DNA of 57,534 nucleotides. It comes from Azonexus sp. GTDB lineage: Bacteria; Pseudomonadota; Gammaproteobacteria; Burkholderiales; Rhodocyclaceae. Made by a program: the position numbers and the translations under genes. The stretch covers positions 1 to 57,534 of the forward strand of contig JAUYEI010000108.1 of assembly GCA_030691385.1 (NCBI GenBank), in the 5' to 3' direction. The notes below the pieces were generated by a model that was not told the origin of the DNA, did no database searches, and saw only the letters and a list, made by a program, of their open reading frames with translations. Below are positions 1 to 42,497 of this stretch, piece by piece; within the stretch, counting starts at the first letter, position 1; each line of letters opens with the position of its first letter.

Positions 1-594
1 GAATATCGTCGCGGCTACAAGTTCTCGACCTACGCCACGTGGTGGATCCGCCAGGCCATCACCCGCTCCATCGCCGACCAGGCACGGACCATCCGCATTC
101 CGGTGCACATGATCGAAACGATCAACAAGATGAACCGGATCAGCCGCCAGATCCTGCAGGAAACGGGTGCCGAACCCGATCCGGCAACGCTGGCCAAGAA
201 GATGGACATGCCGGAAGACAAGATCCGCAAGATCATGAAGATTTCCAAGGAGCCTATCTCCATGGAAACCCCGATCGGCGACGACGACGACTCGCATCTC
301 GGCGACTTCATTGAAGACCAATTGACGCTGGCCCCGGCCGACGCTGCGATGTACTCCAGCCTGCGCGGCGTCACCAAGGAAATCCTCGACACGCTGACGA
401 CGAGGGAAGCCAAGGTCCTGCGCATGCGCTTCGGCATCGAAATGAACACAGACCACACGCTGGAAGAAGTCGGCAAGCAGTTCGACGTCACCCGCGAGCG
501 TATCCGTCAAATTGAAGCCAAGGCGTTGCGCAAGCTGCGACATCCGACCCGCTCCGACAAGCTGCGCAGCTTCCTGGACCAAAACGGCAACTAA
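1..594 (+). CDS. rpoD: RNA polymerase primary sigma factor RpoD, C-terminal part (5' end outside window)
   Basis: The reading frame is open from the first base and ends with TAA. It encodes the conserved C-terminal part of the housekeeping sigma-70 factor. Visible are the end of region 2 ([17 protein letters not shown], which contacts and melts the -10 element), the region 3 signature [12 protein letters not shown], and region 4.2 with the helix-turn-helix [20 protein letters not shown] that reads the -35 element. About 197 residues are present; the N-terminal two thirds lie upstream of the window. A CAU tRNA gene follows immediately. Identification is certain from the motifs. Confidence 0.97.
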
Positions 595-601
595 GGTTTC
601 C

Positions 602-642
602 GGGCCCGTAGCTCAGTTGGTTAGCACTGAGGACTCATAATT
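602..642 (+). pseudogene. 5'-half CAU tRNA fragment, intron-less
   Basis: This stretch repeats the first half of the full CAU tRNA gene at 824. The acceptor 5' strand GGGCCCG, the D-arm and the anticodon region GAGGACTCATAA are all present. Two differences stand out. The D-stem is damaged (TTAGCACTGAGG here, TTAGAGCAGAGG in the intact gene). The exon continues directly through CAT into AAT with no intron. After about 642 the match is lost: there is no recognisable T-arm, 3' acceptor strand or CCA. It cannot fold as a tRNA, so I call it a partial duplicate or the remains of an older copy. Confidence 0.8.
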
Positions 643-823
643 CGTCTATGTCTAAAACGCGTATACAAACTTTTAATTTGTTTCAACAACTTAAGCCTTG
701 TTTTTGCCAGACTTAAGGGGTAGTTAGAGCGTTGTCTGGTGCATTTCTGGTCCAGGTTTGAAGCAGACAACAAACTGCTGGCAACTCGCCTAAACAGCGG
801 GCTGCCGGTAGAATTGCAGTTTC
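643..823. other. AT-richer spacer between tRNA fragment and split tRNA gene, with hairpins
   Basis: No protein gene is visible. The stretch is more AT-rich than its surroundings. It holds an 8-bp perfect inverted repeat, GTTGTCTG at 731-738 and CAGACAAC at 764-771, and a smaller stem (GGCA at 780-783 with TGCC at 803-806, enclosing CGC/GCG). A segment inside the first loop, TGGTCCAGGTTTGAAG, faintly resembles a tRNA T-arm (TGGTCCACGGTTCAAG in the intact gene). It may therefore be the decayed 3' part of the first tRNA copy or the scar of a lost element. This is inference. Confidence 0.4.
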
Positions 824-1191
824 GGGCCCGTAGCTCAGTTGGTTAGAGCAGAGGACTCATCAATGGTGACTTTCGTCAGAAATGGCGATTGAAAAATTGG
901 GTGAATTCAGGGAAACCTAACCATGCAGCAATGTGTGCACGGCAACCCTGAGCCAAGCCGGAGTTACAACTCCGGAAGGTGCAGAGACTAGCGGAGGGGT
1001 ATAGCCCCCTTAATGACCGCCTTGAGCGCCCGACGCCTGACCGCATTGAACGCTTCGGCATTCAGGGTAGAAGGTGGTGAGATAGTCCGTAGCGTTAATG
1101 AAGTTCATATTTAACGATGTGAGCTTTAGCAGCGAAAGTTGAAAACGTTAGAATCCTTTGGTCCACGGTTCAAGTCCGTGCGGGCCCACCA
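824..1191 (+). tRNA. ileX: Split tRNA with anticodon CAU, probably tRNA-Ile2 (exons 824-860 and 1152-1191)
   Basis: Joining 824-860 to 1152-1191 gives a 77-nt cloverleaf with encoded CCA. The acceptor is GGGCCCG/CGGGCCC, the D-stem GCTC/GAGC, the anticodon loop CTCATAA (CAT at 858-860) and the T-arm CACGG-TTCAAGT-CCGTG. The interruption lies directly 3' of the anticodon. CAU can mean Met, fMet or lysidine-modified Ile2. Here the pairs C4-G69 and C5-G68, which favour the lysidine synthetase TilS, and the similarity to bacterial ileX point to tRNA-Ile2, the isoacceptor split in Azoarcus. Elongator Met is the alternative. A terminator follows at 1199. Confidence 0.88.
861..1151 (+). ncRNA. Group I self-splicing intron in tRNA anticodon loop (Azoarcus type)
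   Basis: The 291-nt insertion has the group I layout. The 5' exon ends in U860, and the internal guide GUG at 866-868 pairs with the exon CAU (G-U at the splice site). A conserved core follows: GGAAACCTAA at 911-920, ACGGCAACC...GAGCCAAGCC, then GGTGCAGAGACTA ending at 990. GACTA at 986-990 is complementary to TAGTC at 1083-1087, forming the guanosine-binding P7. The last intron base is G1151, as required. The core closely resembles the Azoarcus pre-tRNA-Ile ribozyme (subgroup IC3, from memory). No homing endonuclease is encoded, so the intron itself looks immobile. Confidence 0.92.
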
Positions 1192-1198
1192 AGACAAG

Positions 1199-1232
1199 AA
1201 GCCTCAACCAGAAATGGTTGAGGCTTTCTTTT
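1199..1232 (+). terminator. Rho-independent terminator after split tRNA
   Basis: A perfect stem GCCTCAACCA/TGGTTGAGGC with a GAAA tetraloop is followed by TTTCTTTT. It ends the rpoD-tRNA transcription unit and separates it from fliO. Confidence 0.92.
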
Positions 1233-1332: not shown

Positions 1333-1743
1333 TTGCTGCGCCTTCTCTTTCCACTGCTGCTGCCTATCACCGCGTGGGGTAGCGATGCCGTCAGCCCTGG
1401 CATTCCGGCCGGCACCTACCTGCAGGCGACCCTCGCCCTGCTCCTCATTCTCGGACTGCTGTTTGGTACGGCCTGGCTGGCCCGCAAGCTGTCGGGCGGC
1501 AAAGGATTCGGCCAAGGCAGCATGAAGATCGTCGGCGGCGTGGCACTCGGCCCGCGCGAACGCATCGTGCTGGTCGAAGTGGGCGATACCTGGCTGGTCA
1601 TCGGCATCGTTCCCGGGCAGATCCGTACGCTGCACCAACTCCCAAAGGGAACAGCATTGGATATTGAATCCACCACCGGCGCTGCCGAAGCGCCGTTTGC
1701 CCAGTGGCTCAAGTCCATCAAAGAGCGTCAGAACAATGCTTAA
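1333..1743 (+). CDS. fliO: Flagellar export apparatus protein FliO
   Basis: FliO is a small membrane protein that helps FliP assemble into the flagellar type III export gate. The 136-residue product has a signal-like N-terminus ([11 protein letters not shown]), a membrane segment around residues 32-50 ([20 protein letters not shown]) and a cytoplasmic domain with [25 protein letters not shown], typical of FliO. No ATG is available near the N-terminus. A TGA lies in frame at 1306-1308, so TTG at 1333 is the most plausible start, with a poor ribosome site. The 3' end overlaps fliP by 8 nt. The usual upstream partners fliM and fliN are absent here. Confidence 0.85.
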
Positions 1744-2482
1744 GCGCGCCATCCTCGGGTTGACCCTGCTGCTCCCCCCGATCGTCGCACTTGCCCAGGC
1801 GGCAGGCGGCCTGCCATCAGTGACCAGCACGCCAACTGGCGGCGGAGGCACCACCTACAGTCTGACCATCCAGACACTGCTCCTGCTCACGGCACTGAGC
1901 TTCCTGCCGGCCGCCATCCTGATGATGACGAGCTTCACCCGCATCATCATCGTTCTCTCCCTGCTCCGCCACGCCATGGGCACGCCAACGTCGCCGCCCA
2001 ACCAGATTCTGGTCGGCCTGGCCCTGTTCCTGACCTTTTTCGTCATGTCGCCAACTCTCGACAAGGTCTATACCGACGCCTATCTGCCACTCTCGGAAAA
2101 CAAGATCAACATTGTCCAGGCCGGAGAACGGGCCGCGCTTCCAATGCGCAGCTTCATGTTGCGCCAGACCCGGGAAGCCGACATAGCCATGCTCGCCAGC
2201 GTCGCCAAGGCCGACAAATTCGAAAAGCCTGACGACATCCCCCTGCGCGTGCTGATTCCCGCATTCGTCATCAGCGAACTGAAAACCGCATTCCAGATCG
2301 GCTTCATCATATTCATTCCCTTCCTGATCATCGACATGGTGGTAGCCAGCCTGCTGATGTCGATGGGCATGATGATGATGTCGCCGGTCATGGTAGCCCT
2401 GCCCTTCAAGTTGATGCTCTTTGTTCTGGTCGATGGCTGGCATCTGGTGATCGGCTCGCTGGTCAAAAGCTTCAATCCATGA
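1736..2482 (+). CDS. fliP: Flagellar export gate protein FliP
   Basis: FliP is the main ring subunit of the FliPQR export gate in the flagellar basal body. The 248-residue product, taking ATG at 1736 as start, has a cleavable signal peptide ending near ALAQA. Membrane segments follow ([80 protein letters not shown]), including the family signatures TSFTRII and P-F-K-L-L. An in-frame extension to 1664 is possible, but it would overlap fliO deeply and lacks a signal. The stop overlaps the fliQ start as ATGA, so the two are translationally coupled. Confidence 0.97.
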
Positions 2483-41549: not shown

Positions 41550-42497
41550 TTATCCGGCAGTACCTTTTCCAGTGGCGGGCAGCTTCAAGCCCTCAGGAAG
41601 AAGCTCTTCCTCACCGGCCTCGGAATCGGGCCCTTCTTCCTGCAAAATGGCAGTCTCCGTCTTACGATTCAGGACGACGATACTGATTCTGCGATTAACG
41701 GAGTTAAGCGGGTCGTTCTTGTCGAAAAGAACGGTGGAAGCGAGGCCGACGACGCGTATTACCTTGCTGTCGTCCATGCCGCCAAGGACCAATTCGCGTC
41801 GAGAGGCATTCGCCCGATTGGCCGAGAGCTCCCAGTTTGAGAAGCCCTTTTCACCACCGGAAAACTGCGACGCATCGGTATGTCCGGCCAGACTGATCCG
41901 GTTCGCAACCCCGTTCAGCGCCTTACCTATCTGGCGCAGGATATCCCGCGTGTAAGGTTTGAGATCAGCACTGCTGGAATCAAACATCGGCCGATTCTGC
42001 TCATCGATGATCTGGATGCGCAGCCCCTCGGAGGTTATATCGAGCAGCATCTGCTTTTTGAACTGAGCCAACTGCGGGCTTTGCTCGATCATTTTTTCGA
42101 TATCGGCCTTGAGGCTCTCCAGGCGCTCCTGCTCCTTGCGGCGAAACTCGGCCTGAGCCTCCTTGGAGAAAGAGGTTGATTTCTTGGCCTCGACATCGCC
42201 ACGCTTGACTTGCCCGGCCTGGCGCGTCAAATCCTTCCCGCCGCCCTGAAGGACGCTGGTCGCATCGCCCGAACCACTACCGCCCTGCATGGACACTTTC
42301 AGGGGATTCTGGAAATGATCGGCAATCCCCTGAAGGTCACCCTTGGCCGTCGAACCAAGCAGCCACATCAACAAGAAGAAGGCCATCATTGCCGTCACGA
42401 AGTCGGCATAGGCGATCTTCCAGGCGCCGCCATGCGCTCCGCCGGCAACAACCTTCTTGCGCTTGATTATTATGGGGCGTGTCGAATCGTCGCTCAT
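41550..42497 (-). CDS. motB: Flagellar motor stator protein MotB
   Basis: The 315-residue product has a basic N-terminus, then a single membrane helix WKIAYADFVTAMMAFFLLMWLLG with the proton-carrying Asp32. A plug/linker region follows (about 55-150). The OmpA-like peptidoglycan-binding domain has ISLAGHTDASQF, NWELSANRANASRREL and NRRISIVVL. With MotA it forms the primary proton-driven stator. It lies 27 nt after motA. Confidence 0.96.
   Translation of the reverse strand: MSDDSTRPIIIKRKKVVAGGAHGGAWKIAYADFVTAMMAFFLLMWLLGSTAKGDLQGIADHFQNPLKVSMQGGSGSGDATSVLQGGGKDLTRQAGQVKRGDVEAKKSTSFSKEAQAEFRRKEQERLESLKADIEKMIEQSPQLAQFKKQMLLDITSEGLRIQIIDEQNRPMFDSSSADLKPYTRDILRQIGKALNGVANRISLAGHTDASQFSGGEKGFSNWELSANRANASRRELVLGGMDDSKVIRVVGLASTVLFDKNDPLNSVNRRISIVVLNRKTETAILQEEGPDSEAGEEELLPEGLKLPATGKGTAG

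Follow-up and report, generated by a model that had tools for sequence, protein, structure and literature searches.

A group I intron of subgroup IC3 interrupts the Azoarcus pre-tRNA-Ile(CAU), in which it is inserted after the anticodon. The locus described here bears on two questions: the anticodon-loop position of group I introns in bacterial tRNAs, and the movement of those that lack an endonuclease.

The published work is cited here from excerpts. PMC3984707 (2014) names Azoarcus pre-tRNA-Ile structures, and its excerpt places all phage introns observed to that date in protein genes. With tRNAscan-SE 2.0, tRNA-Ile2 genes of Acidovorax and Burkholderia were noted to contain group I introns (PMC8450103), so the intron described below is as such no discovery; those introns lie in the same gene, belong to the same class and may include its family. 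The excerpt gives them one sentence, with no word on subgroup, a broken native copy or a phage link. tRNA-dependent lysogeny was described by Guerrero-Bustamante and Hatfull (2024, PMC10865867): the host tRNA is split at a core of about 10 bp without being rebuilt, and a tRNA of matching isotype, brought by the element, takes its place. The excerpt does not speak of an intron in that spare, whereas the tRNA-Ile2 and tRNA-Leu spares reported here are themselves interrupted, within the core, by group I introns. Group I introns in the T-loop of tmRNA (PMC11915505) likewise cluster in an RNA gene at which elements integrate, but that is a different gene, and the excerpt draws no link to broken host copies. 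Further excerpts served as background (PMC6125680, PMC4033280, PMC6892783, PMC11878797, PMC11835236). The literature searched, mostly outside subscription journals, described neither integrative elements whose spare tRNA has an intron nor phage tRNAs with group I introns.

The window is the whole analysed stretch, 57,534 nucleotides from Azonexus sp. Its own genome is labelled G000 and the contig that holds it C15; other genomes carry G numbers, and loci carry L numbers. The split tRNA gene consists of the following parts:

824..860, plus strand: 5' exon of tRNA-Ile2(CAU)
861..1151, plus strand: group I intron, 291 nt, IA-like
1152..1191, plus strand: 3' exon of tRNA-Ile2(CAU), CCA encoded
1199..1226, plus strand: hairpin with TCTTTT behind it, possible terminator (plus-strand T run, identified by eye)

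The first-pass annotation had placed a group I intron at 861-1151, directly 3' of the anticodon of a CAU tRNA, and our results bore out both the intron and its exon boundaries. RF00028 was the one above-threshold cmscan match in the window (849-1110, 55.3 bits against a cut-off of 50, E 2.4e-11), and the whole model was covered (1-253). When the exons were joined, ARAGORN reported a CAT tRNA with a complete cloverleaf, and in the unspliced window it found no tRNA. The guide GUG (866-868) facing the exon CAU (858-860), the P7 pairing GACTA/TAGTC (986-990/1083-1087) and the terminal G (1151), all named beforehand, were present. The minimum free energy of 824-1191 had a z-score of -4.6, with none of 100 shuffles equally low; this fold is unable to draw the P3/P7 pseudoknot and was used for the z-score alone. 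The intron is very probably spliced in the cell. An intron-encoded endonuclease was considered and rejected, 291 nt being judged too short. The promoter scan found none upstream of 824, so an own promoter for the intron tRNA is not established; what the region does show is the likeness of 765-823 to G455. The terminator scan placed the hairpin at 1199..1226 on the minus strand only, where it was no commoner than in shuffles.

ARAGORN labelled the spliced tRNA as Met. We assigned it to Ile2 because the intronless copy of the genus after rpoD is the same gene (G035, 77/77 nt), and because it has the acceptor pairs C4-G69 and C5-G68, which we take to be the mark of TilS. TilS-like genes gave three matches in the genome, two of them above cut-off. 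AUA made up 89 of 15371 codons in 38 window ORFs.

The same annotation had considered the case that this is the only CAU copy, and the count agreed for this draft, in which no other intact CAU tRNA was found. A genome search with the 77-nt tRNA returned both exons, a remnant at 602-641, a fragment on contig C98 and four weaker matches. The tRNA model gave 43 genome matches, and ARAGORN found no CAT anticodon in the 43 loci that together hold all of them. The same census found no initiator Met, elongator Met or Ile(GAU) tRNA either. The draft (129 contigs, with the locus 600 bp from a contig end) therefore has gaps, and the status of sole copy is only probable. We have very little doubt that a group I intron lies inside this probably sole tRNA-Ile2(CAU). 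A selenocysteine tRNA was predicted at G000:C99:8619-8709.

To read the intron structure, 26 introns chosen for diversity from 115 relatives (see below) were aligned, and a named structure of 49 pairs was counted. Its main elements are:

866..869, plus strand: internal guide GUGA, forming P1 with exon UCAU (857-860), U-G at the splice site; GTG invariant in 26/26
897..903, plus strand: P3 5' strand, partner 1027-1033; 99.5% of cells paired, double changes in 3/7 pairs
907..912, plus strand: P4 5' strand, partner 946-951; 99.4% of cells paired, no double changes
958..975, plus strand: P6a hairpin; double changes in 6/6 pairs
986..990, plus strand: P7 5' strand GACTA, partner TAGTC 1083-1087; invariant in 26/26
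991..1020, plus strand: P7.1/P7.2 domain; double changes in 8/8 pairs, 91% and 82% of cells paired
1034..1076, plus strand: P8 with enlarged hairpin; double changes in 4/5 pairs

Pairing was found in 94.9% of 1272 cells, and 28 of the 49 pairs showed double changes. None of 500 shuffles was as high on any measure, and slid structures paired in 33-45%. The group I core thus carries compensatory changes in this sample. No double changes occurred in P4, P6 and P7 among the 26 introns; P7 is silent on covariation because it is invariant. A 4-pair P5 drawn by eye was paired in only 74% of cells, and P9 and P10, which were not settled by eye, stood outside the 49-pair count.

The P7.1/P7.2 domain supplied the extra peripheral helices that had been thought possible, and it bears on the subgroup. 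In the window intron, 36 nt with P7.1/P7.2 separate P7 from P3', so P3' does not directly follow P7. Two congeners, G011 and G450, have introns of 207 and 208 nt at the same site, in which P3' comes directly after P7 without P7.1/P7.2. Over 202 nt these two agree at 95.5%; the window intron shows weak likeness to that of G011 (71% over 92 nt, E 1e-5). We take P7.1/P7.2 between P7 and P3' to be the mark of subgroup IA and its lack that of IC3; by this rule, the window intron is IA-like and the other two are IC3-like. Two intron types therefore occupy one site in one genus. The first-pass comparison with the Azoarcus intron held for the tRNA, the ribozyme class and the insertion site. Kinship beyond these was not supported: the window intron, of 291 nt, has the P7.1/P7.2 domain and shows only weak likeness to that of G011, a comparison made through the IC3-like introns of the congeners in place of the Azoarcus sequence itself.

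The first reading had missed a broken tRNA-Ile2 5' half at 602-641. The intron gene is a second copy, 182 bp behind this remnant, in the following surroundings:

1..594, plus strand: rpoD 3' end, ORF open at contig start; RpoD tail 96-99.5% identical in 7 congeners
602..641, plus strand: broken native intronless tRNA-Ile2, nt 1-40 only; 92.5% over 40 nt, at the G035 distance of 7 bp from the rpoD stop
642..823, plus strand: spacer from the remnant to the second tRNA copy
1333..2482, plus strand: fliO and fliP; fliN is separate, on C98 by the tRNA-Ile2 3' half

G035, the nearest genome by RpoD tail (99.5%), carries the intronless gene in the order rpoD, 7 bp, tRNA-Ile2, small regulator gene, arfB-like gene. 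In the window's own genome, tRNA-Ile2 nt 32-77 lie at C98:19955-20000 (95.7%), before the same regulator gene. The native halves overlap by the 9 bp ACTCAYAAT (nt 32-40), and the intron site falls inside this overlap. fliN, fliO and fliP stand together in 6/6 congeners compared, the scattered matches of G009 being left out. A single exchange explains both joins, rpoD-tRNA-fliO on C15 and fliN-half-tRNA on C98. An inversion fits if rpoD and fliP of the ancestor lay on different strands, the arrangement of G030 and G032; with both on one strand as in G035, the exchange would be the excision of a circle. Parts of the spacer recur elsewhere: 765-823 resembles the sequence upstream of the G455 intron tRNA (85% identity), and 722-755 resembles the corresponding spacer of G450 (88%). 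Compared with tRNA-dependent lysogeny, the window locus has a split host tRNA that was not rebuilt, of which both halves would stem from one integration, and a spare of the same isotype just inside the junction (824-1191). No integrase was found by four integrase queries in the window or in C98:10000-40914.

Downstream of rpoD, the genus was surveyed in 76 genomes, our own included; 70 matched the rpoD-end search, and 67 loci remained after three weak matches were left out. One near-full-length intronless tRNA (74-79 nt aligned) was present at 58 loci, that of G022 being alien-like. Five loci (G000, G450, G464, G009, G466) combined the 5' half of the native gene with a second, complete tRNA-Ile2 behind it. 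This replacement bears an IA-like intron in G000 and an IC3-like intron in G450; in G464, G009 and G466 it is intronless and 75-85% like the native gene. Two loci carried an intron without a remnant, G011 (IC3-like) and G455 (IA-like, the source of locus L203). The native gene of G449 (L302) was truncated in place to nt 1-50, with no replacement tRNA found by the window query, and the locus of G023 was cut by the contig end. In 4/4 intron congeners, rpoD and the intron tRNA are separated by about 90-230 bp, versus 7 bp for the tRNA of G035 and about 5-25 bp at the other loci. Directly behind the alien spare tRNA-Ile2 of G009 we observed a metallo-beta-lactamase-fold gene (PF00753; L094 1122-1994, G009:C62), with the contig end 1.1 kb on.

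The 5' remnants of G450, G464, G009 and G466 share an endpoint (nt 40-45 by blast, about nt 39-41 by eye). In G466, the 5' half (nt 1-45) and the 3' half (nt 20-77) are about 15 kb apart, with a Phage_integrase gene (PF00589) at the far half. G464:C1:1612256-1612306 is a candidate far half, and none was seen in G450. In G030, G032 and G016 the native gene is intact and is accompanied by a fragment (nt 32-77 or 26-77); the attR-like 3' fragments of G030 and G032 start at nt 32, and integrases stand beside the restored native genes of G032 and G016. The variant ACTCAC is common to G030 and C98.

A second intron-bearing tRNA of the same genome gave a fuller picture. The only other RF00028 match in the genome at E <=0.001 lies in a tRNA-Leu(UAA) on contig C45 (39.9 bits, below the Rfam cut-off), within a 15.6-kb prophage-like element that cuts a Gly-Cys-Leu array (L294, G000:C45:23100-38812). 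The native tRNA-Leu halves, nt 1-39 at 16312-16274 and nt 31-85 at 659-604 of L294, are 15.6 kb apart, and both extend across the intron site. An integrase gene (PF00589, phrog_1) adjoins the first half, virion proteins (phrog_684, phrog_992) are encoded between the halves, and the complete intron-bearing tRNA-Leu(UAA) stands just inside the second. The tRNA census of the genome held no other UAA tRNA-Leu. A split host tRNA, an integrase and a spare of the same isotype are thus all present, which matches the layout of tRNA-dependent lysogeny except that this spare bears an intron.

RF00028 matches occurred in 5 of 60 relatives. The tRNA-Leu introns of G044 and G056 had no second tRNA-Leu part copy within 20 kb of each. 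Another group I intron of the genus (L044, G014:C11:260470-260678) sits in an apparent tRNA-Arg(CCU); a reading of it as tRNA-Leu was discarded.

We then asked how widely the intron of the window is distributed. The pattern ACTCAT, gap, TGAATTCAGGRRARCC had at least 119 matches in genome contigs, and viral contigs added 5. From 131 scripted sequences, of which the false row L107 was dropped and 15 had no closed tRNA, 115 (the window included) rebuilt a CAU tRNA around an intron; as they come from the matches listed, the family has at least 115 members. They are the window, three genomes of the order (G415, G199, G206), three phage records, three viral contigs and 105 of the 119 listed genome stretches; the remaining 14 comprise 12 with a tRNA 5' half but no 3' half in the stretch, and two with no tRNA. 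The start after CAU was fixed by the search pattern and is thus no test, and the 3' end was derived from tRNA pairing alone; all 115 rebuilt introns terminate in G, with lengths of 221-334 nt. Within the order, the family was found in 4 of 399 genomes, the window's own included. Among the matches listed, Gammaproteobacteria appear in many of the titles (Lysobacter, Luteimonas, Dyella, Rhodanobacter, Woeseiaceae), and others name Variovorax, Piscinibacter, Splendidivirga and a bin of candidate division FCPU426. The exons of Variovorax and Piscinibacter resemble those of the window, in keeping with a place of its genome in Burkholderiales. ARAGORN left the family genes unreported in the few loci where it was run. 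A plasmid search gave 31 records, and the 20 listed of these match positions of the tRNA 5' half only.

The intron was also found in the CAU tRNAs of three Klebsiella phage records (Muenster, phiKp_21, OU509535), and the same exons and intron are readable in KP13-7 and RCIP0023. Viral contigs L106, L108, L109 and L249 added four more intron tRNAs, with a terminase gene on L109. Looser viral patterns returned 53 stretches, 50 of them new, which yielded one new tRNA intron (L249); the low-score closures L260, L291 and L293 were judged false, and the others had no tRNA intron. Similar intron stretches (69-91% over 11-55% of the query) also lie in phage protein genes or beside HNH genes (L104 inspected), whereas introns of the window family sit in tRNA genes. 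Two further phage introns were noted by the way. Gordonia phage Daredevil (L387, NC_048021.1, about 41850-42120) has an unannotated IC3-like intron in tRNA-Lys(TTT) exons read by eye. A 595-kb uncultured phage (L388, LR756511.1) has an IC3-like intron end before a tRNA-Leu-like 3' exon, and an HNH-like reading frame was read by eye upstream in the intron.

In a FastTree tree of the 115 introns, the window intron joined L203 with support 1.0, and then L098 and L099 (0.81). L203 is its nearest relative (89.8% over 293 nt; 92.6% over 231 trimmed columns). The wider group of 13 around it (0.82) contains phage introns L101-L103 and L109 as well as L170, L100, L150 (Variovorax), L186 and L210 (Piscinibacter); the six phage introns in the tree do not form one group. 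Within this tree of its own type, the window intron has other introns of proteobacteria, and some of phages, as its neighbours. Part copies that span the splice junction but have no intron were present at 4 of the 115 loci (most of them stretches of 8 kb or less): the window, L157 (nt 1-39, 100%), L170 (nt 33-75, 100%) and L175 (nt 27-74, 92%). Junction-spanning matches in L109 (two) and L203 were weaker, pointed to other tRNAs and were set aside. With so few part copies, and none at G044 or G056, the majority of the family may have inherited the intron in place. Elements are strongly linked to these introns in the genus of the window, and elsewhere the link is only suggestive.

Taken together, we consider it probable that the intron gene is a replacement for a native tRNA-Ile2 that was cut by a tRNA-dependent element. 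The parts of this explanation differ in strength. That the intron gene replaced the broken native gene is highly probable; that a tRNA-dependent element delivered it is fairly likely, and is suggested by the five genus loci with a 5' half and a spare, the integrase of G466 and the tRNA-Leu prophage on C45, while near the window locus itself the searches found no integrase. The intronless tRNA-Ile2 that ancestrally followed rpoD would have been cut in the anticodon loop at the 9-bp core ACTCAYAAT (nt 32-40) by an integrative element of this kind, which does not rebuild the host tRNA and carries a spare of the same isotype. The spare would here already have borne the intron. The element may later have disappeared, or been dispersed in the same rearrangement that separated fliN from fliO, so that the spare is now probably the only tRNA left to read AUA. 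Against delivery, the half on C98 could stem from a tRNA-restoring element like the fragments of G030, G032 and G016, and in-place truncation, as seen in G449, is another way in which the native gene can be broken.

An ordinary DNA exchange with a G455-like relative, involving no integrase, could also have brought in the gene, the native copy having decayed or been split by an unrelated fliN-fliO rearrangement. Such an exchange is conceivable because G455 has the nearest intron and a similar upstream segment without any remnant; the truncation in G449 and the reciprocal fli/rpoD junctions are in line with it. We nevertheless regard it as unlikely, since the remnants of G450, G464, G009 and G466 share their endpoint, the fragments of G030 and G032 both begin at nt 32, and spacer 722-755 is common to G450, whose replacement has the other intron type. 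Homing or reverse splicing of an Azoarcus-like IC3 intron into the native gene in place is very improbable: site and class agree with Azoarcus, and IC3-like introns do occur there in G011 and G450, but the window intron has a P7.1/P7.2 domain, the native gene next door is intronless and broken, and the intron tRNAs stand farther behind rpoD than the native gene does. Chimeric joins in a 129-contig draft, near a contig end, are at least as improbable, as a single exchange accounts for both reciprocal joins, which lie on separate contigs, and the same remnant layout recurs in other assemblies, including that of G464 in only two contigs.

Replacement by an element-borne spare also suggests a tentative role for the intron. 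It splits the integrase core, ACTCAT|AAT in tRNA-Ile2 and GACTT|AAAAT in tRNA-Leu (boundary by eye), so the spare might withstand the integrase of its own element or of a competitor and still yield the tRNA once spliced. We propose, as a possibility that we ourselves hold to be doubtful, that group I introns in the anticodon loops of bacterial tRNAs are at least partly both cargo and armour of tRNA-dependent elements. If this putative shield is real, it would explain the position of the introns, the two types at one site in the genus and the spread among bacteria and phages.

In conclusion, the probably sole AUA-reading tRNA of this bacterium depends on splicing, and it belongs to a family of more than 100 splicing-dependent tRNA-Ile2 genes, a lower bound from the matches listed. 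For two tRNAs in one genome, an intron-bearing spare lies beside a host tRNA cut at the intron's own base. The same pattern with two intron types in one genus makes a link between ribozyme and integrase testable.
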